DNA of 34,160 nt from the NCBI GenBank assembly GCA_016215345.1, contig JACRKD010000026.1, forward strand, positions 1-34,160, given 5' to 3'. Shown here piece by piece: positions 379 through 27,789 of the stretch; positions within the stretch are counted from its first letter, which is position 1, and each line of letters begins with the position of its first letter. Below the pieces are notes generated by a model that worked only from the letters and a program-made list of their open reading frames with translations, made no database searches and was not told the origin of the DNA. The DNA is from Candidatus Vogelbacteria bacterium (GTDB lineage: Bacteria > Patescibacteriota > Minisyncoccia > Phycocordibacterales > UBA12445). Both the position numbers and the translations under genes were made by a program.

Positions 379-395
379 CGGAGATCCGATCTCCG
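379..395. repeat. REP-like palindrome, RAYT1 family, upstream copy
   Basis: CGGAGATC-C-GATCTCCG; the 26-nt CGGAGATCCGATCTCCGGAAAATAAG is identical at 1117. Confidence 0.9.
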
Positions 396-426
396 GAAAA
401 TAAGTATATTGTGCTATACTCATCGG

Positions 427-1104
427 ATGGCAAGACCAGAATTTATAGATGGCGGTATTTATCATATTTATAATCGCGGTACTGATAAGAGAGATATCTT
501 TCTAGATGATCAGGATTATTTTCGTTTTATACATTATTTGTATGCATGTAACGATGTTGAACCGCTAGAAAAAATAGAGAATCTAATAATCGGAGATCCG
601 ATCTCCGGAATTAGGGGTCGGGAGAGGCTTGTTAGCATTTTTTGTTATGCGCTGCTGCCGAATCACTTTCATTTGCTCATCCAACAGAGGAAAGAAGGTG
701 GCGTTAGTAAGTTTATGCAGAAATTATCTATTGGGTATACGATGTATTTCAATGTTAGAAATGAACGAACCGGGGTTCTTTTTCAGGGAAAATTTAAGAG
801 TAAGTTTGTAGACGACGAAAAATATCTAGAAACACTTGTAAATTATATCCATCTTAATCCGTTGGATATTTTTCAAAAGAAATGGAAAGAAAATGGAGTG
901 AAAGATTACGCCTCCGCTAAAAACTTTTTGGAAGAGTATCGGTGGTCTAGTTACCTAGATTATATAGGCAAAAAGAACCTTCCTTCATTATTAGATTTTG
1001 TAGCTATCAAAGAGAATCTGGGGGATACCATTGAACACAAAGATACTCTGAATCATTTACTTAAGGATTATGGCGACGGTATCGCCGGCTTACTTTTAGA
1101 CTAA
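427..1104 (+). CDS. REP-associated tyrosine transposase (RAYT, Y1_Tnp/IS200-like)
   Basis: MARPEFIDGGIYHIYNRGTDKRDIF... and ALLPNHFHLLIQQ (HxH) and YIHLNPL are RAYT signatures; start at 427 preferred over 409; extended -10 TGcTATACT about 10 nt upstream. Confidence 0.9.
   Translation: MARPEFIDGGIYHIYNRGTDKRDIFLDDQDYFRFIHYLYACNDVEPLEKIENLIIGDPISGIRGRERLVSIFCYALLPNHFHLLIQQRKEGGVSKFMQKLSIGYTMYFNVRNERTGVLFQGKFKSKFVDDEKYLETLVNYIHLNPLDIFQKKWKENGVKDYASAKNFLEEYRWSSYLDYIGKKNLPSLLDFVAIKENLGDTIEHKDTLNHLLKDYGDGIAGLLLD
591..607. repeat. REP-like palindrome, RAYT1 family, copy inside the transposase CDS
   Basis: TCGGAGATCCGATCTCCGGAA identical to the flanking copy; encodes IIGDPISGI. Confidence 0.9.
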
Positions 1105-2304
1105 CCCCTTATTTATCGGAGATCCGATCTCCGGAAAATAAGGTCTGATTGTTTCTCCATAAAGTTTTTCGGTTTTTTCGGTCATCTCATCAGTTGAGAA
1201 CTTTTGTTTGACAACTTTTTCTAGGTTTTTACCTAGGGTTTTTCCGAGCTCTGGATTATCTAGAAGCTTTTTAAGGGCGCCTTTGATGGCGTCGGAATCT
1301 TTTGGTGGAACGAGTATTCCGGAAACGCCATCCTCTATAATTTCTGGGATTCCGCCGACATTTGTTGCGATGACAGGAAGCCTTGCGAGACCCGCCTCGA
1401 GTATTGAATAGGGAAGGCCCTCCTTAACTGATGAAAGCATGAAGATATCGAAGATTCCGATATACGAAGCGGCGTTGTCCTTAAAGCCAAGAAGCTTAAC
1501 TTTGTCCTCAATCCCTTCTTCTTTAATTTGTTTTTCAAGGCTTGTTCTTTCTTCTCCTTCGCCGATCACGCTAAACATTATATTTCTATCTTTTATTTTA
1601 GATATTGCGTCTATCGCGTAGGTAAGTCCTTTGTTTTTTGTTAGTTCAGAAATGGTTCCGATTTGTATCGGTATTCCCTCTGGCCTTTCCCCAACTTTTA
1701 TAAGGCCCTTTTTTTCTTGGGCGGAAATCCCGATGTAAATTAATTCGAGTTTGTTTTTAATGAATGGCCAATTGGTAACTAGGGAAAGATCTTTTTGGTT
1801 TATGCATATGGTCCTGTGTGAAAATATTACTGTCAGCCAGCTTAGGAAGGAGATTATTTTTTTTGCGATCCATGGGCGGTTTTCGTTAAATGGCCAGCCG
1901 TGCACGGTGAAGATTATTATAGGGTTTCGGATTGAGCGTTTAGGATTTAGTAAAGAATAGACGCGACCGGCGAGCGAGCCAGTTCCTCCTATCTTGGAAC
2001 TGTTCAGATGTATTATATCCGGCTCCTCCTCCCTATACAGTTTTATCAAATCAAAAACCCCCCTCGGCTCGTCGAGAAGATGTATATCTCTTGACAGTGA
2101 TGATATCATGACGCTTCTAATTCCTGCCTCATTGAGTCTTTTCTCTAACGCACCGGCCTCCGCGCCTCTTTCTCCTGTTCCGCCAAAAGCTACTACCACC
2201 TCATGGTCTTTATTCATATGGGCGGCGAGCTCGTAGACGTATTTTTGTGCCCCTCCCCAATTAGACTTGGTTATTACATAAAGGATTTTGATTCTTTTTA
2301 TCAT
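1096..2304 (-). CDS. Glycosyltransferase family 4
   Basis: ILYVITKSNWGGAQKYVYELA..., GTISELTKNKGL, SSVKEGLPYSILEAGLARLPVIATNVGGIPEII. Confidence 0.9.
   Translation of the reverse strand: MIKRIKILYVITKSNWGGAQKYVYELAAHMNKDHEVVVAFGGTGERGAEAGALEKRLNEAGIRSVMISSLSRDIHLLDEPRGVFDLIKLYREEEPDIIHLNSSKIGGTGSLAGRVYSLLNPKRSIRNPIIIFTVHGWPFNENRPWIAKKIISFLSWLTVIFSHRTICINQKDLSLVTNWPFIKNKLELIYIGISAQEKKGLIKVGERPEGIPIQIGTISELTKNKGLTYAIDAISKIKDRNIMFSVIGEGEERTSLEKQIKEEGIEDKVKLLGFKDNAASYIGIFDIFMLSSVKEGLPYSILEAGLARLPVIATNVGGIPEIIEDGVSGILVPPKDSDAIKGALKKLLDNPELGKTLGKNLEKVVKQKFSTDEMTEKTEKLYGETIRPYFPEIGSPINKGLV
1117..1133. repeat. REP-like palindrome, RAYT1 family, downstream copy
   Basis: CGGAGATCCGATCTCCG, same orientation as the 379 copy; lies inside the 3' end of the minus-strand glycosyltransferase. 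Confidence 0.9.
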
Positions 2305-6009: not shown

Positions 6010-6876
6010 ATGATTATTGATGGAAAGAAAATCAGTGCCGAAATAAAAGAAGAGTTAAAAAAGCAGGTAGCTTTATCAGGGGAAAAAATATCTCTCGGGG
6101 TTATTTGGGTTGGGGATTATCCTATTTCCGGAAGATATGTTCGGATGAAAAAGAAGTTTGGCGAGGAGGCGGGAATAGAAGTGAACATTTATAAGTTGCC
6201 TCTAACTATTTCGACGGATGATTTTATAAAAAAAACTCGAGAAATTTCGGAGAAAGAATCCGGGATCATAATTCAACTTCCTCTTCCAGAAAAGGTAGAT
6301 TATAAATTAGTTTTGTCGAACATCCCGGAAGGAAAAGATGTTGATCTTTTGTCGGAACAAGCCTATTTGGAATTTGAAAAAGGTGTCTCTAAAATTTTAC
6401 CTCCAGTCGTTGGCGCGATAAAGGAGATTTTGGAAAGGTCTGGCGTAACAGAGGATAAAATTTCTGGGCTCGACGTTGTTTGCGTCGGCAGAGGGAAGCT
6501 CGTTGGAAAACCAGCAGCTTCTTGGTTTAAGAACCTAGGCGCGAATGTTATTCTTCTGGGGCGGGACACAGAGGATATCGGAGAATTTACAAAAACGGCC
6601 GACATAATAATCTCTGGCGCAGGCGTTCCTGGAATTATAAAACCCTATATGTTTCCAGAAAAATCTGAAACAAAATCAGGCTTGACTACTACTGGCCAGA
6701 GCGGAGTTATTTTGATAGACGCGTCTACCTCGGATGTCGGCGGAAAGTTAATAGGAGACGCCGATCCAGCTTGCGCGGAAAAATGTTCGGTTTTTTCACC
6801 CGTCCCCGGCGGTGTCGGGCCGATAACCGTAGCCATGCTCTTTAAGAATTTGGTAACACTTCAACTTGGAAACTAA
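6010..6876 (+). CDS. folD: Methylenetetrahydrofolate dehydrogenase/cyclohydrolase
   Basis: DGKKISAEIKEELKK, YVRMKKKFGEEAGI, IIQLPLP, GRGKLVGKPAASW, PVPGGVGPITVAML; start at 6010 preferred over 5989. Confidence 0.95.
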   Translation: MIIDGKKISAEIKEELKKQVALSGEKISLGVIWVGDYPISGRYVRMKKKFGEEAGIEVNIYKLPLTISTDDFIKKTREISEKESGIIIQLPLPEKVDYKLVLSNIPEGKDVDLLSEQAYLEFEKGVSKILPPVVGAIKEILERSGVTEDKISGLDVVCVGRGKLVGKPAASWFKNLGANVILLGRDTEDIGEFTKTADIIISGAGVPGIIKPYMFPEKSETKSGLTTTGQSGVILIDASTSDVGGKLIGDADPACAEKCSVFSPVPGGVGPITVAMLFKNLVTLQLGN

Positions 6877-6886
6877 GTTCCCAAGT
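6864..6886. repeat. REP-like palindrome, RAYT2 family, upstream copy
   Basis: ACTTGGAAAC-TAA-GTTCCCAAGT, 9/10 bp stem; the TAA loop is the folD stop codon. Confidence 0.88.
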
Positions 6887-6900
6887 GCTATAGTTTCTGG

Positions 6901-7563
6901 ATGAGGAATTTTTCTTTTGAAGAAGGGGGGTATTATCATGTTTATAATAGAGGTGTTGATAAACGTCAGATCGTTATGGATGATTACGATAGTGGGCGTT
7001 TCGTGCAGGGACTCACGGAGTTTAACGTTGTCGAGCCGATTGGAAGTATTTATGAAAATTCATTTAAAAAGACTCAGGATCAACTTAGGTACTTAGTTCC
7101 CAAGTCTGGTGGGCTTGTGAATATAATTTGTTATTGTTTAAATCCCAATCATTTTCATTTACTACTTCAGCCGATTTCTGAGAGGGGAATAGAAAAATTT
7201 ATGCATAAATTGGGATTGGGATACACAAACTATTTTAATAAAAAGCATAAGAGATCCGGGGCGTTGTTTCAGGGGACTTTTAAGGCAAAACATGTTTTTA
7301 CAGATGGCTATATTCAACACTTAAGCGCTTATATAAATTTAAACAATCTGGTTCATAAAATAGAGGGGGAGCCATCAAAATTAGTTCGCTCAAGCTGGGA
7401 AGAGTACGCAGAAGATAAAAAGTCGATTTGTCGTAAGGATATAATCTTAGATCAATTTGGCGATGCACGAGAATACAAAACATATTGTACTGACGTTTTG
7501 CCTATGTTAATAGAGAATAAAAGTTTAGCAAAGGAACTTCGGGAGTTGGGTTTTGAAGAATAA
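6901..7563 (+). CDS. REP-associated tyrosine transposase (RAYT), second family
   Basis: GGYYHVYNRGVDKRQIV, CLNPNHFHLLLQP, FNKKHKRSGALFQGTFKAKHV, YINLNNL; extended -10 TGcTATAGT just upstream. Confidence 0.9.
   Translation: MRNFSFEEGGYYHVYNRGVDKRQIVMDDYDSGRFVQGLTEFNVVEPIGSIYENSFKKTQDQLRYLVPKSGGLVNIICYCLNPNHFHLLLQPISERGIEKFMHKLGLGYTNYFNKKHKRSGALFQGTFKAKHVFTDGYIQHLSAYINLNNLVHKIEGEPSKLVRSSWEEYAEDKKSICRKDIILDQFGDAREYKTYCTDVLPMLIENKSLAKELRELGFEE
7083..7105. repeat. REP-like palindrome, RAYT2 family, degenerate copy inside the transposase CDS
   Basis: ACTTAGGTAC-TTA-GTTCCCAAGT; right arm intact, left arm with 2 changes. Confidence 0.75.
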
Positions 7564-7569
7564 GTTATT

Positions 7570-7592
7570 ACTTGGGAACTAAGTTCCCAAGT
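7570..7592. repeat. REP-like palindrome, RAYT2 family, downstream copy
   Basis: ACTTGGGAAC-TAA-GTTCCCAAGT, perfect 10-bp stem. Confidence 0.9.
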
Positions 7593-7627
7593 AAGGGTGG
7601 CCGTTTTTATTTTCTGCTGGTGCTGGC

Positions 7628-14483: not shown

Positions 14484-14929
14484 TACCCGCCGAAGTTCCA
14501 TGGGAGCGGAGGAGGGTTAGATTTTGCTCCTCATATTGAGAGTAAAATCAGGGCTACTAAAATTAATTGTCTAAAAGACAATCCGCCGAAGAGGTGGAGA
14601 TAAGTTAGTTCAAATTCTTTTATTAGAGTTTGATCCTAGCTCAGGATGAACGCTGGCGACGTGGATAAGGCATGCAAGTCAAGGGGCTCGCAAGAGCACC
14701 GGCAGACGAGGTAGTAATACGTAGGTACGCACCCCAGAGTCTGGTATAGCTCGTCGAAAGACGGGGTAATCCCAGATGGTTCCGCCGATAAGGCGGATAA
14801 AGGAGCAATTCGCTCTGGGAGCGGCCTGCGGGGTATCAGCTAGTTGGTAAGGTAAAAGCTTACCAAGGCTATGACGCCTAGGGGAGGTGAGAGCCTGACC
14901 CCCACCGATGGTACTGAGACACGGACCAT

Positions 14930-14960
<31 letters not shown>

Positions 14961-15515
14961 CCGCAATGGGCGAAAGCCTGACGGAGCGACGTCGCGTGAT
15001 TGATGAAGTCCCTCTGGGACGTAAAGATCTTTTATAGGGGAGAACGTGGCATTTATGCCACACGATAGTACCTTATGAATAAGGGGTTGCTAAACTCGTG
15101 CCAGCAGCAGCGGTAATACGAGTGCCCCGAGCGTTATCCGGATTTATTGGGCGTAAAGGGTGTGTAGGTGGTTTTGTTAGTCTTTCGTTAAAGCTCTCGG
15201 CTTAACCGGGAAAGTGCGAAAGAAACGGCAAGACTAGAGGGCGCAAGAGGCTTATGGAACTCATGGTGTAGGGGTGAAATCCGTTAATATCATGGGGAAC
15301 ACCGAAGGCGAAGGCAGTAAGCTGGTGCGTTTCTGACACTGAAACACGAAAGCGTGGGTAGCGAATGGGATTAGATACCCCAGTAGTCCACGCCCTAAAC
15401 GATGTTCTCTAGTTTTTCGGAGTATCGACCCTCTGAGAGACAAAGCTAACGCATTAAGAGAACCGCCTGGGTAGTACGGCCGCAAGGCTGAAACTCAAAG
15501 GAATAGACGGGGACT

Positions 15516-15550
<35 letters not shown>

Positions 15551-16059
15551 GCAACCGAGGAACCTCACCAGGGTTTGAAATGCTGTCAAAAATTTCGTGA
15601 AAGCGAAATGTGTTCACAAGACGGTCAGCACAGGTACTGCATGGCCCTCGTCAGTTCGTGGCGTAAGCTGTTCCCTTAAGTGGGGTAACGAACGCAACCC
15701 TCGTCGTGTGTTATATGTGTCACACGAGACTGCCACGTTTATCGTGGAGGAAGCGAGGATGACGCCAAGTCAGCATGACCCTTTGATATCTTGGGCTACA
15801 CGCATCATACAATGGCTGGTACAACGAGTTGCAACACCGAAAGATGAAGCTAACCTCAATAAAGCCAGCCCCAGTTCGGATAGAGGTCTGCAACCCGACC
15901 TCTTGAAGCCGGAATCGCTAGTAATCGCAGGTCAGACATACTGCGGTGAATACGTTCTCAAGTCTTGTACTCACTGCCCGTCAAGTCAGGGGAGCTGGTA
16001 GTACCTGAAGTCCCATTTCGGTGGGGTCAAGGTAAGATCGGTGACAAGGATTAAGTCGT

Positions 16060-16855
16060 CGCGGCATACTGCCGTTGTTGCGACCTTGAAGGAGTAATCC
16101 TTCTCGACGAAAATTGGCTATTTGCTGGAATCCCTGCGTATCTCACGCTACTCGTTTAATGATATACTTCATGCGATGAGTGATAATGTGTTGAGTGAAG
16201 CAGAAAATCAGCAGGGAAGGCTCGTAGAAACACGGGAACCCTCAGAGACTACACGCCAATCTCCGCTAAAAGCTAAGATGACAAGGAATGAAATCCTTGC
16301 CTATTTACAAGGTGCGATGCATGATGCATCCCTTAATAAGGGGACGCGAATACGTTTTACCCAAAAGAATCGTGGCTGGTTGGTAATTCTTCAAGAATTA
16401 CTTGCTAAAATTGGTTCAAAATCTTGGATATACCAAGAGGGTAAACAAAGAAATGTATATGCTCTTGAAACAGTAACTAAGGAATTAAGTTTTACATTTC
16501 AAGCTTCGAATATAAGGGGTTCAAAATGCATGAAAGCTTATATTCGAGGATTCTTCGATGCAGAGGGAGGGATTCCGCATACACGTGACAGATTCTATAT
16601 CCAGTTGGTTCAAAAGAACTGGAAGAAGGTAGAAGAATTGAAGCGAATGTTGGAACATCTTGGTATCGGAAGTGGTAAAATTCATAATCCTAGTAAGAAG
16701 ATTGATCCAAATTATTGGAGACTATTTATTGCATCTGCAGATCATAAAAAGTTTGCAACTGAAATAAATTCGCTTCATCCAGTAAAACGGAAAATCTTCA
16801 AAGAGCGGATGATGATATAGTCCATGCCTTATGGCGACATAAGGGTAAAAACATG
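16060..16855 (+). other. Group I intron in 16S rRNA, after the position equivalent to U1498
   Basis: Exon ends ...GUCGU; IGS UUGUUGCGAC (16075-16084) pairs with GUCGU (P1, U-G wobble) and 3' exon AACAA (P10); intron ends in G; CTCAGAGACTACACGCC (R-like) and GATATAGTCC (S-like) core motifs. Confidence 0.92.
16278..16820 (+). CDS. LAGLIDADG homing endonuclease inside the intron
   Basis: Two motifs: LAYLQGAMHDASLN and MKAYIRGFFDAEGGI; stop TAG lies inside the GATATAGTCC core motif. Confidence 0.88.
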   Translation: MTRNEILAYLQGAMHDASLNKGTRIRFTQKNRGWLVILQELLAKIGSKSWIYQEGKQRNVYALETVTKELSFTFQASNIRGSKCMKAYIRGFFDAEGGIPHTRDRFYIQLVQKNWKKVEELKRMLEHLGIGSGKIHNPSKKIDPNYWRLFIASADHKKFATEINSLHPVKRKIFKERMMI

Positions 16856-18506: not shown

Positions 18507-18616
18507 CATTTTCCTAATGTCTTACTATAATCCACGGTCGTGGGAGATAGTAAGACGTTCGCTGTTTTTGTCATGTATGTTATGGCTGGTGATTGTGGTC
18601 TATAATATCTGTATAT

Positions 18617-21313
18617 ATGGACGACAGTTTCTTGGGTAAAAGGTTTACCATTATGGGTATGGACGGGGGCGGACGCGGATTGAAAGATGCGCGCTTTTTG
18701 CTTCTACACGGCGTAGAGGTTATAGGGACGGACTTGAGGAAGGCTGAAGAGTTTCCGGAGGCGGTCGCGCTTGCAAAACAGCATAAAAATCTCCGCTTGG
18801 TCTTTGGGGAACATAGACTTACTGATTTTCAGAATAGAGATTTTATAATTCGCGCGGCGAAAACTCCCATTGATTCACCATATCTCGCAGAAGCTAGAAA
18901 AAATAATATTCCCGTTGTCTCTGATGAGACTTTGTTTTTGACGTATGCGCCGCAAGTTTTAACGGTAGGCGTTACCGGTACGCGAGGGAAGACCACCGTT
19001 ACATACATGATTCATGAAATATTGAAAATTGCTTCTGGCACACAGGTCGGTACTGTGTGTCGTGTGTATTTGGGTGGGAACGTGCAAGATACTGCCATGT
19101 TGCCGTTGTTGGATAAAATTAAAGATGGTGACTATCTTGTTATGGAACTAGACTCTTGGAAACTTCAGAGTTTTGCCGAGAATAAAATAAGTCCGAATAT
19201 TGCAGTTTTTACAACTTTCTATCGAGATCACATGGATTATTATAATGGAGATATGGATAGATACTGGCTAGATAAGTCTGCTATTTTTGTGAATCAGAAA
19301 AAGGGAGACAGGTTAATCGTAAGTTCACAAGTAAAAAACTATCGAAGCCCATGCCTCATCGGCAGACAGGCGATTTCAACGGTCTCTCCCATGGTAGTCG
19401 GCACAGAGTATTTGCCAATAGATTGGAAATTAAAAATTTTGGGTGACCATAATCGTCTCAATGCGGGGCTCGCTCTCGCCATGGCGCGCTCGCTCGATAT
19501 ACCGGACGAGATAAGTAGAAAAGCCCTTGAAAGTTTTAATGGAGTTCCGGGTCGTCTTGAGTATCTGGGTGAGAAAAATGGAGTGAAATATTTTAACGAT
19601 ACGGCCTCGACTTCTCCGGAGGGCACTATCGCCGGCCTTAATGCCTTGAAAGACTATAGAGGTAAGATAATATTGATTGGTGGCGGTTCTGATAAGGGTT
19701 TTGAGTATGGAAAGTATGCGGACGAAGTCAAACAATATGTAAGGTCACTCATTTTATTTAGAGGTTCTGCTTCAGACAAAATATTAAAGATATTGGGAGA
19801 TGATGGGGTTGTTGTTGATAAGAATATTGGTAGTATGTCTGAGGCCTTTAGCTTGGCCCAATCCGTCGCAGGGTCAGGCGACGTAATTCTTCTTTCTCCC
19901 GGCGCTGCCTCTTTCGGAATCTTTAAGAATGAATACGATCGAGGGGCACAGTTTAATAGAAGGTTGAACCTTCTAGGGCATCAGACAGCAAGAAAAATTT
20001 ATTTCGTTGGTATCGGCGGAATTGGGATTTCGGCGATTGCCAGAATGATGTTGCTAGACGGAAAAACGGTTTCCGGAACGGATGCCAGCGAATCTCCGGT
20101 TACCGAGGAACTTGCTAAACTTGGAGCGAAAATAAATATTGAACATAGAGCCGGGAACATAACCGAGGACATTAATCTTGTCGTTTATTCTATCGCCGTA
20201 ACGCCCTCTAATCCGGAGCTTGTTCGCGCGCGCGAGCTTGGCCTTCTCGTTATGAGTTATCCGGAAATTCTCGCCGAAGTTACGAAGAACTATTTTACAG
20301 TTGCGGTTTCCGGGACACACGGAAAAACGACGACAACGGCTATGATTGCGAAAATTCTCATCGATGCCGGTCTCGACCCTACCGTTATTGTCGGCAGTTT
20401 GCTCCATGAACGTAACCCTTCGATGGGTTCGACGAGCTCACCACAAGCTCCTTCAGGGAGAGGCACTAACTTTATCGCCGGAAAGGGGAAGATTTTAGTT
20501 CTTGAGGCGGATGAATATAGAAGAACATTTATGAAGATAACGCCTCGTCTTGTCGTTATAACAAACATAGATGTTGACCATCTCGATTATTATAAAGATC
20601 TCGATGATATTAAATCTGTCTTCCGTAGTTTCGCTTTGAAGCTTGGGTCGGAAGATCATTTGGTTTGTGATATTGGCCAGAAGAATCTTTTTGATGTTTA
20701 TGGGGGGCTAGATTGCAAGGTTTTGAATTATGGGGAGATATGTCGGCCGGATTTAATTGTTCCGGGTGAGCATAATAGAGATAACGCTCGCGCCGCGATC
20801 GCCACAGCCATCGCGCTCGGCGTCAGTGAAGACAATGCTCGGAAAAGTTTGGAGACTTTTTCGGGAACCTGGCGGAGACTTGAGAAGAAGGGGTCGCTTG
20901 TATCGGGTGTGATTATATATGACGACTACGCGCATAACCCGGGCAAGATTAAGGCAGCTATAGCCGGTCTTCGGGAACTTTATCCGGATAAAAAGATAAC
21001 AGTTGTATTTATGCCGCATCTTTTCAGTCGTACAAAAATCTTACTTCATGAACTTGCCGAAAGTTTATCTGGCGCGGATCGAGTATATGTTACAGATATT
21101 TATGCTGCGCGAGAGCTTTCCGATCCAACTATTCACGCGAGAGATTTGGTGGACGCGATAAATGTTAAACAAGGGCTAGGTGAGTATCTGGGGGATTTGA
21201 ACGATTTTGCAGAAAAGATTAAGACGCGTTTGTCAGGTGAAGATGTTCTTGTAACCATGGGGGCGGGGGATATATATAAACTGGGAGAGAAAATTCTAAA
21301 ATTTGACTTGTAG
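18617..21313 (+). CDS. MurD-MurC fusion (UDP-MurNAc-Ala:D-Glu ligase + UDP-MurNAc:L-Ala ligase)
   Basis: GVTGTRGKTTVTYM and NDTASTSPEGTIAGL (MurD); YFVGIGGIGISAIARM, VSGTHGKTTTTAMI, VLEADEYRRTFMK, IYDDYAHNPGKI (MurC). Confidence 0.93.
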   Translation: MDDSFLGKRFTIMGMDGGGRGLKDARFLLLHGVEVIGTDLRKAEEFPEAVALAKQHKNLRLVFGEHRLTDFQNRDFIIRAAKTPIDSPYLAEARKNNIPVVSDETLFLTYAPQVLTVGVTGTRGKTTVTYMIHEILKIASGTQVGTVCRVYLGGNVQDTAMLPLLDKIKDGDYLVMELDSWKLQSFAENKISPNIAVFTTFYRDHMDYYNGDMDRYWLDKSAIFVNQKKGDRLIVSSQVKNYRSPCLIGRQAISTVSPMVVGTEYLPIDWKLKILGDHNRLNAGLALAMARSLDIPDEISRKALESFNGVPGRLEYLGEKNGVKYFNDTASTSPEGTIAGLNALKDYRGKIILIGGGSDKGFEYGKYADEVKQYVRSLILFRGSASDKILKILGDDGVVVDKNIGSMSEAFSLAQSVAGSGDVILLSPGAASFGIFKNEYDRGAQFNRRLNLLGHQTARKIYFVGIGGIGISAIARMMLLDGKTVSGTDASESPVTEELAKLGAKINIEHRAGNITEDINLVVYSIAVTPSNPELVRARELGLLVMSYPEILAEVTKNYFTVAVSGTHGKTTTTAMIAKILIDAGLDPTVIVGSLLHERNPSMGSTSSPQAPSGRGTNFIAGKGKILVLEADEYRRTFMKITPRLVVITNIDVDHLDYYKDLDDIKSVFRSFALKLGSEDHLVCDIGQKNLFDVYGGLDCKVLNYGEICRPDLIVPGEHNRDNARAAIATAIALGVSEDNARKSLETFSGTWRRLEKKGSLVSGVIIYDDYAHNPGKIKAAIAGLRELYPDKKITVVFMPHLFSRTKILLHELAESLSGADRVYVTDIYAARELSDPTIHARDLVDAINVKQGLGEYLGDLNDFAEKIKTRLSGEDVLVTMGAGDIYKLGEKILKFDL
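20417..20466 (+). repeat. Probable palindromic element inserted in frame in the murC domain
   Basis: CCCTTCGATGGGTTCGACGAGCTCACCACAAGCTCCTTCAGGG has nested CCCT/AGGG and GAGCT/AGCTC arms; adds about PSMGSTSSPQAPSGRG. Confidence 0.55.
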
Positions 21314-25836: not shown

Positions 25837-27789
25837 ATGTCGGAGTTTCCCAACAAGGATGTTACATATTTTGCCGAAGCTGATTTCCGCAATAAGGGGG
25901 TTAGATTTGGCATAAAATCTCTCGATAGGACGAGGCATTTTTATGTTATTGGGAAGACCGGCTTCGGAAAGTCCACCCTTCTTGAGAATATGACGATTCA
26001 GGATATTGATAATAATAATGGTGTCGGCTATATGGATCCACACGGAAAATCGGCTGAACTCTTCCTTGATTACATTCCGAAAGAAAGGATAAAAGATGTC
26101 ATTTATTTCGCGCCCCATGACATGGAATACCCCTTTGCCTTTAACGTCATGGAGGACGTGGGGAAAGACCAAAGACACCTCGTGGCGAATGGACTTATGG
26201 CGGCCTTCAAGAAGATCTGGCCGGATGTTTGGTCGGCTCGTATGGAATATATCTCCACTAATATTATTCTGGCGCTTTTGGAATATCCGGATTCGACCAT
26301 GCTTGGAGTAAACCGAATGCTTTCAGATAAGGCGTACAGAAATAAAGTTGTCGCGTATATTACAGATCCTTCCGTTAAATCCTTTTGGGTCGATGAATAT
26401 GCGAAATACGGCGAGAAGCTGATGGCCGAGGCTTCCGCTTCGATCCAAAATAAATTTGGGCAGTTTATTTCCAACCCGCTCATTAGAAATATTCTTGGGC
26501 AACCTAAGTCCACCTTTAATCTGCGTGACGTGATGGACGGCAAAAAGATTCTTATTATGAATCTCTCAAAGGGGCAGATGGGAGAGATTAACGCGAACCT
26601 CATAGGAGGTATGCTTATTACAAAAATATATCTTGCCGCCATGTCTCGCGCTGGTGATAGCGCCGAAGCCCAGGATAAACTCCCGCCATTTTATTTCTTT
26701 GTAGACGAGTTTCAGTCTTTCGTTAACGAATCGTTTAAGGATATTTTGTCGGAAGCTAGAAAATATAAATTGGCATTAACAATCGCGCACCAATATATTG
26801 AGCAAGTCCCTGAGGAGGTGAGGAACGCGGTCTTTGGAAACGTTGGAACGCTGGTTACTTTTAGGGTTGGTCCGCTCGATGCCGAAATGTTTGAAAAAGT
26901 TTTTACCCCGAAGTTTCTAGCGGCCGATCTTGTGAATCTTGGTTTCGCCCAGATATATTTAACTCTCATGATAGACGGCGTAGGCTCTCAACCGTTCTCT
27001 GCCAAGACTATGGGGCCCATTAAAAAGCCCGATGTATCTTACAGACAAGAAGTGATAGATCACTCGAGAAAAACTTACGCGAAGCCTCGCGCAGAGGTTG
27101 AGGCTGACATCGCCAAGTGGTACGCTTCTGGGACGGAAGATGTTCCTGCCGCTCTCGCCAAATTTGTCCCTCTGGGCCGGAGTGACAACCAGTCCGCTAA
27201 GCCTGCCTTTTCTCAAGACAAGAGGCCGACGTCCTCATCGTCGATAGGAGGAGTTCGACCCATCCCCCCGCCAATCCCGAGACCCCTTATGTCAAGACCG
27301 CCAGCCCCCACCCTTAACTCGACGAGAGGAGGCCCACCATCTTCACCTAGGGCGGGTGGTTTTCCCGCTAGATCCGGTTCACCCTCACTTGGAGGTCGAA
27401 CCTCCAACGGGAGGTTCGACCTCCAAGTACCAGTGGCACCAAAGATGTCTCTTTCAGAGTTACAGGGGAATAAGCCAATACAGCCAGTAGAAAAGTTCAC
27501 AGGCAGGAATGTCCCGGATCTCAAGAAAGCCATAGAAGAGGCTATGAGAAATAACAAGCCTAGCCAAGTAGCGCACGGGGTGAGCCTATCGAACCAGCCA
27601 AAAGTTGAGGCTAAAATAGGCGAGGCGATGCGGGCCAAGGCACCTGAGTCGATGGAGTCAGCCACGCAAATTTCATCTGTGGCCAAGGAGGAAAATAAGC
27701 CTATCGACTTCGCGGAAGCCAAGTCGGTTAAAGAGGTTCCGGAAGAGGTTTTAAGAAAGATTTTGGGGTCAGATGATATTGGCAAATAA
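25837..27789 (+). CDS. VirD4/TraD-like type IV secretion or conjugation family ATPase
   Basis: HFYVIGKTGFGKSTLLENM (Walker A), GYMDPHGKSAEL, PFYFFVDEFQSF (Walker B), ARKYKLALTIAHQY; proline-rich C-terminus. Confidence 0.88.
   Translation: MSEFPNKDVTYFAEADFRNKGVRFGIKSLDRTRHFYVIGKTGFGKSTLLENMTIQDIDNNNGVGYMDPHGKSAELFLDYIPKERIKDVIYFAPHDMEYPFAFNVMEDVGKDQRHLVANGLMAAFKKIWPDVWSARMEYISTNIILALLEYPDSTMLGVNRMLSDKAYRNKVVAYITDPSVKSFWVDEYAKYGEKLMAEASASIQNKFGQFISNPLIRNILGQPKSTFNLRDVMDGKKILIMNLSKGQMGEINANLIGGMLITKIYLAAMSRAGDSAEAQDKLPPFYFFVDEFQSFVNESFKDILSEARKYKLALTIAHQYIEQVPEEVRNAVFGNVGTLVTFRVGPLDAEMFEKVFTPKFLAADLVNLGFAQIYLTLMIDGVGSQPFSAKTMGPIKKPDVSYRQEVIDHSRKTYAKPRAEVEADIAKWYASGTEDVPAALAKFVPLGRSDNQSAKPAFSQDKRPTSSSSIGGVRPIPPPIPRPLMSRPPAPTLNSTRGGPPSSPRAGGFPARSGSPSLGGRTSNGRFDLQVPVAPKMSLSELQGNKPIQPVEKFTGRNVPDLKKAIEEAMRNNKPSQVAHGVSLSNQPKVEAKIGEAMRAKAPESMESATQISSVAKEENKPIDFAEAKSVKEVPEEVLRKILGSDDIGK
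27387..27428. repeat. Perfect 19-bp-stem palindrome inside the ATPase CDS
   Basis: ACTTGGAGGTCGAACCTCC-AACG-GGAGGTTCGACCTCCAAGT. Confidence 0.92.

Follow-up and report, generated by a model that had tools for sequence, protein, structure and literature searches.

Why would a transposase gene carry, within its own reading frame, the palindrome that also flanks it on both sides? The question is raised by RAYT1, a gene in the 34,160-nt stretch of DNA analyzed here, which we call the window. A sequence-only reading of this DNA had placed the same palindrome upstream of, inside and downstream of the gene, and the three positions were borne out: CGGAGATCCGATCTCCG occurs there in three exact copies (Table 1), as against a mean of 0.08 matches and a maximum of 2 in shuffled sequence. 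The two outer copies match at 18 of 18 positions and have in common, in the same orientation, a stretch of 27 nt, TCGGAGATCCGATCTCCGGAAAATAAG, where 26 nt had been claimed. The internal copy is in frame, as had also been noticed, about 20 residues ahead of the NHFH motif, and the downstream copy doubles as the in-frame C-terminus of a convergent glycosyltransferase-like ORF. All three copies are able to fold as single-stranded DNA hairpins. A long tail, GGAAAATAAG, stands beside the palindrome at RAYT1; such a long conserved tail is not general among RAYT loci, where identity drops beyond 11 nt from the centre.

Table 1. Coordinates in the window of the two RAYT genes, their palindrome copies and the convergent ORF.
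Feature	Coordinates	Strand	Remarks
Upstream RAYT1 copy	379..395	+	Exact CGGAGATCCGATCTCCG; 27-nt unit 378-404; centre 40 nt 5' of ATG; can form ssDNA hairpin
RAYT1	427..1104	+	225 aa Y1_Tnp/HUH transposase; NHFH at residues 79-82; YIHLNP from residue 140
Internal RAYT1 copy	591..607	+	Exact CGGAGATCCGATCTCCG; in frame, residues 55-61 (IGDPISG) of the protein starting at ATG 427
Downstream RAYT1 copy	1117..1133	+	Exact CGGAGATCCGATCTCCG; 27-nt unit 1116-1142; stem extendable to 1108-1142
Convergent glycosyltransferase-like ORF	1096..2304	-	Last codons (PEIGSP) run through the downstream RAYT1 copy
RAYT2 upstream palindrome	6865..6885	+	TTGGAAACT/A/AGTTCCCAA
RAYT2	6901..7563	+	220 aa; another RAYT, whose palindrome differs from that of RAYT1
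RAYT2 internal copy	7085..7103	+	Slightly decayed; TTAGGTACT/T/AGTTCCCAA; 16/18 vs RAYT2 downstream copy
RAYT2 downstream palindrome	7568..7594	+	TTACTTGGGAACTAAGTTCCCAAGTAA

Judging from its sequence and its predicted structure, RAYT1 is an HUH/Y1 protein of the RAYT (TnpA_REP) type, with the HuH motif, the Y1 motif and the fold all present. It matches Pfam PF01797 (Y1_Tnp) above the cut-off (E 2e-7), and the NCBIfam equivalog NF047646 (REP_Tyr_transpos) at 42 bits, under the 80-bit cut-off, as do three other RAYTs tested (23-51 bits). The AlphaFold2 model (pLDDT 91) has as its top Foldseek match 4er8, the E. coli RAYT-REP complex (E 2.4e-6), and in this model helix 28-40 and the HUH strand 69-76 are connected by a flexible loop of low confidence (block mean 65), to which the residues encoded by the internal palindrome belong. 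A C-terminal HTH-like extension is a feature of subclass 2.1; among Pfam families, no HTH match was obtained for RAYT1. No close orthologue of RAYT1 was found, the best being about 50% identical. The perfect palindrome AATTTATGCATAAATT, at window positions 7196-7211 and also in locus L008, spans codons for the conserved KFMHKL residues in two RAYTs and probably reflects coding constraint.

Searching the whole genome (704,745 bp) for the palindrome, a check that the sequence-only reading had proposed, yielded five exact copies of CGGAGATCCGATCTCCG and one 45-bp double variant. Three of the five are those at RAYT1, but the palindrome is not private to this locus, since the two exact copies outside the window are in frame in housekeeping genes, alr (alanine racemase) and ksgA (KsgA). 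Coding sequence thus holds four of the five; only the upstream RAYT1 copy is intergenic, because the downstream one lies in the glycosyltransferase ORF and the other two in alr and ksgA. The ksgA gene (L006:2382-3281) contains three in-frame palindromic elements of two families, one of them a 45-bp inverted pair with a very strong predicted fold. This double palindrome corresponds to an insertion of exactly 15 amino acids missing from 17 of 17 orthologues, and the second palindrome, of a related family, to a stretch of 9-11 amino acids likewise missing from all 17. By sequence comparison, these two are clean in-frame palindromic insertions, extra sequence relative to the orthologues. The third ksgA palindrome and the alr copy are in loops of variable length, so that insertion is likely there too, if less clean.

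Other palindromes and genes of this genome deserve mention in their own right. A third RAYT (L009, contig C28) has GTAGAAGGTTSAACCTTCTAC at both ends (1298-1324 and 1974-1996) and no internal copy. A member of the family flanking this gene, TAGAAGGTTGAACCTTCTA, was located at window positions 19957-19975, in frame in ORF 18593-21313 (+), where it marks the exact point at which MurD and MurC are fused into one protein of 906 aa. In relatives the two are encoded by separate ORFs of about 430-520 aa, and a palindrome may have brought about the fusion. An in-frame double palindrome with 19-bp arms (window 27387-27428) lies in ORF 25837-27789 (+), which encodes an ATPase resembling TraG/T4SS coupling proteins; it belongs to the GGAGGTTCGACCTCC family, found also on contig C17 (L018:1500-1518) and with a related copy in ksgA. 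The 16S rRNA gene (14618-16104) is directly followed by a LAGLIDADG_3 homing-endonuclease-like ORF (16122-16820), outside the matched rRNA region.

We looked for internal copies in two sets of RAYT loci. The first comprised 80 fetched loci, mostly from Parcubacteria, plus the four RAYTs of this genome (84 in total); the second, non-overlapping, comprised 78 further RAYTs after removal of those sharing 90% or more identity with the first set. The palindrome is locus-specific: neither the 59 relatives searched nor 378 further genomes of the phylum contain the exact RAYT1 motif CGGAGATCCGATCTCCG. The orthologue tests were therefore made on every RAYT locus with its own palindrome (162 loci). An internal copy was defined as one identical to a flanking copy at 14 or more of 18 positions, and flanks swapped between loci served as the null. 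Internal copies were present in 41/84 loci of the first set (3.0% with swapped flanks) and in 35/78 of the second (3.7%), that is, in 76/162 loci (47%) as compared with 3-4%. Matching upstream and downstream copies were found in 57/84 and 62/78 loci, 119/162 altogether. The great majority of internal copies (66 of 76) are in the loop that immediately precedes the HUH strand, at about +136 to +219 nt; the remaining ones are at +275 to +281 (three, between HuH and Y), +466 to +529 (six) and +682 (one). Many other CPR RAYTs do, then, carry their own REP at the position that the sequence-only reading had pointed to, as 66 of the 162 loci have it in the same pre-HUH loop and matching their own flanks. 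The same reading had named the loss of the internal match from orthologues with the same flanking palindromes as the observation that would speak against it. This was borne out in part: where the flanks match, roughly one locus in two does lack the internal copy while the others keep it. The site is therefore dispensable, which argues against an essential role. The presence of the copy is scattered over both deep RAYT clades, with at least 21 changes on the tree. Three further loci have a decayed internal copy and most copy-less loci show no partial match to the palindrome. In a separate enrichment test, with the cognate palindrome defined solely from the agreement between upstream and downstream copies, RAYT interiors contained 28 copies in 35.3 kb (0.79/kb) and other coding sequence of the same loci 10 in 649 kb (0.015/kb), a difference of about 50-fold (P 8e-38); other non-coding sequence contained 20 in 95.6 kb. 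If local hopping were the sole cause of this enrichment, it would have to cease at the gene ends.

The internal copies are also fixed in position. Those in the pre-HUH loop (loop 1) occur in codon phase 0 (38 copies) or 2 (28 copies) and never in phase 1. Loci L036 and L040 have different palindromes (TACAAGG and TCCAAGG) at identical codons, and TACGAAGTT, TACGAGGCT, TATGAGACT and TACGAGGCC are found at identical codons in L032, L025, L037 and L076, respectively. We compared pairs of loci whose proteins are at least 50% identical and whose flanks show three differences or more, the pairs not being mutually independent. The internal copies of such pairs are in the same codon phase in 446/459 cases and in the same alignment column in 380/459, and the internal copies mirror 3080 of the 3455 flank differences (89%) over these pairs. 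A control was needed because the pairs had been picked for matching flanks: among strong palindromes in the pre-HUH loop, found regardless of the flanks, 51 of 55 match the flanks of their own locus, and picking matching loci therefore does not create the effect. The mismatch is 0.38 in 18 positions between the internal copy and the nearer flank and 0.55 in 18 between the upstream and downstream copies; an internal copy thus resembles a flank as closely as the two flanks resemble one another. Fresh insertion into RAYT genes was considered and rejected, as loop length hardly changes (median 39 aa with a copy and 37 aa without, P 0.03) and most copy-less loci have no partial match; no empty site was thus found. 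On this sequence evidence, the two flanking copies are joined by an internal third site of long standing, which holds its position and changes together with them; its age follows from the single codon and phase seen within each RAYT clade.

Identity among copies reaches about 11 nt on each side of the centre; the element, about 21-23 bp in length, is perfectly palindromic, with the consensus TWYCGAGGTYNRACCTCGRWA. A GTAG foot was found within 12 nt of 0-4% of the palindromes and a GTGG foot within 12 nt of 0-5%, with none at the window copies, and the consensus contains no CGTC head. TnpA_REP enzymes are known to need a GTAG head, and its absence weighs against the three-site reading proposed below. 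The outer REPs of a canonical RAYT are inverted relative to each other; in our loci the centre bases of the two outer copies are complementary in 34 locus pairs and the same in 21, and at RAYT1 the outer copies are direct. Upstream copies lie at a median of 35 nt ahead of the ATG, and a TATAAT-like box follows on their 3' side in 47% of the loci as against 11-25% in controls. A sequence resembling the DnaA box, TTATCCACA, adjoins the RAYT palindromes of L028, L033, L041, L048, L063, L079 and others; its density is 0.76/kb near RAYTs vs 0.33/kb in other non-coding DNA (2.3x), partly owing to one locus. The C-terminal domain of subclass 2.1 RAYTs has been described as similar to Bac_DnaA_C (PMC6006769).

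REPs inside their own RAYT gene are already known from subclass 2.4 (Quentin et al. 2018, PMC6006769; RAYT group 4), where, as here, cognate REPs flank the gene and occur in frame within it. In that subclass, however, the inserts generally lie between HuH and Y, whereas 66 of our 76 copies precede HuH and only 3 fall between HuH and Y; its REPs are long and GT[AG]G-footed or double-footed, whereas the palindrome here has no GTAG head; its motif is YIxNNP instead of YIHLNP; and its hosts are mainly Cyanobacteria and Bacteroidetes, whereas the related named loci here are mostly from Parcubacteria. The features of subclass 2.4, YIxNNP and inserts between HuH and Y, are thus not those of our loci. 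The proteins resemble instead subclass 2.1 (RAYT group 1, TIRYT), with its NH[YF]H, F-Q, Y[IV]HLNP and S-S motifs and length of about 230 aa (PMC6006769, PMC3733652): NH[FY]H was found in 158/162 proteins, YIHLNP in 110/162, LF[QE]G in 124/162 and SS[YF] in 126/162. Yet REP-like sequences have been reported absent from the neighbourhood of subclass 2.1 genes (PMC6006769), whereas the 119 loci with matching copies have a cognate palindrome on both sides. TIRYTs, for their part, carry GGGGWSAS inverted repeats (PMC3733652). RAYT genes with coevolving flanking REPs are well known (PMC2817692, PMC8266576), and our loci share with the canonical REPtron (E. coli rayT, RAYTs of Pseudomonas and Stenotrophomonas) the HUH/Y1 protein, the two-sided cognate palindromes, their coevolution and the inverted pairs elsewhere (PMC2817692, PMC8266576). 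They differ in having no GTAG tetranucleotide, in the internal copy, for which E. coli rayT has no counterpart, and in the low copy number. Canonical REPs are abundant and mostly intergenic, whereas this genome has only the five exact copies and one double variant, mostly within genes. Finally, intragenic REPs and the RPE-4/6 elements of Rickettsia are likewise short in-frame palindromes in housekeeping genes, single or as dimers, but CGTC REPs and RPEs have no linked transposase gene (PMC3733652), whereas the same palindrome is here linked to a RAYT.

We propose, with a probability of roughly 0.6, that RAYT1 is a REPtron-like locus with three cognate sites, including an old internal one that changes in concert with the others, and with self-control as the likeliest, if speculative, consequence. 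The three sites would be located near the promoter, inside the coding sequence and at the stop codon, and the encoded TnpA most likely recognizes all three hairpins. They would be kept alike during the drift of the palindrome either by TnpA-mediated exchange of one REP for another or by shared selection for recognition. The concerted change implies that the agent that recognizes the outer sites also recognizes, or once rewrote, the inner one, and TnpA would be the obvious candidate for this agent. Self-recognition by the transposase, which the sequence-only reading had offered as one possibility, is strongly implied by the sequence comparisons and is the natural reading, because the internal copies resemble the flanks of the locus they belong to and hardly ever the flanks of a different one. 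The autoregulation that it had also offered is plausible but speculative; at the level of sequence it looks the same as the third suggestion of that reading, a mobile unit with an internal site. The likeliest consequence would be that TnpA holds down its own expression by engaging the promoter and the coding DNA (or mRNA) of its gene; alternatively, the internal match may be a side effect of REP-to-REP exchange. The presence of palindromes in other genes means that residence within a gene does not by itself imply function. Only tentatively, as a possibility, do we put forward the fuller proposal that the enzyme uses an ancient codon-fixed third REP to monitor and restrain its own activity, and that each drift in specificity brings a rewriting of this REP along with the outer sites.

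A different account would be that of a tolerated selfish insertion, in which palindromes mobilized by the RAYT insert all over the genome and those that end up in frame in surface loops are retained. The RAYT gene would be the most frequent target, its transposase acting nearby, and the internal copy would have no function. The clean ksgA insertions, the intragenic REPs described in many genes (PMC3733652), the flexible loop that holds the RAYT1 site and the half of RAYTs that lack a copy are all consistent with it. Under such a process, however, codon and phase should vary, whereas loop-1 copies avoid one phase altogether and commonly share a column within clades; other coding sequence of the same loci should not be so depleted of copies, and copy-less loci should show a shorter, empty site. 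We consider this account rather unlikely. It is improbable that the copies are double-stranded operators, one at the promoter and an auxiliary one within the gene, for a dimeric repressor (the RAYT or another protein) acting via looping: the spacing of the upstream copies from the ATG, the -10-like box that follows them and the position of the internal copies about 200 nt further on would suit this arrangement, but copies are also found across stop codons, as inverted pairs and within unrelated housekeeping genes, as is the case for mobile REPs, and the RAYT fold is one that binds REP hairpins as single-stranded DNA. Still less probable is an mRNA hairpin controlling translation or decay, which would resemble the flanks because all three must fold alike, for although every copy can fold as a hairpin, a demand for structure would keep only the pairing, whereas the identity of sequence with the own flanks is kept too. 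Coincidence or codon constraint, by which the loop peptide (xxGxS/TL/F, recognizable also in members without the palindrome) would happen to be encoded by a palindrome, has a negligible chance, being refuted by the flank swap (45-49% observed vs 3-4%) and by the fact that the palindrome present at these codons differs between loci and agrees each time with the local flanks.

Returning to the three-site reading, our search of the available literature turned up no description of elements like these from Parcubacteria. The novelty lies in the host group, in a cognate palindrome without GTAG at RAYTs of a type for which REPs had been reported absent, and in the codon-fixed internal site ahead of HUH, with its frequency and its concerted change. 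Cognate palindromes are thereby extended to this RAYT type, and the finding bears on how REPs spread and on what restrains RAYTs. The hundreds of RAYT loci of the Parcubacteria type represent natural pairings of a TnpA with three matched sites, and their dozens of independent palindrome changes could be used to decipher the recognition code between TnpA and REP, as well as to test the rewriting of a set of sites by REP-to-REP exchange. In these loci a coding sequence is seen to track a drifting DNA recognition site.
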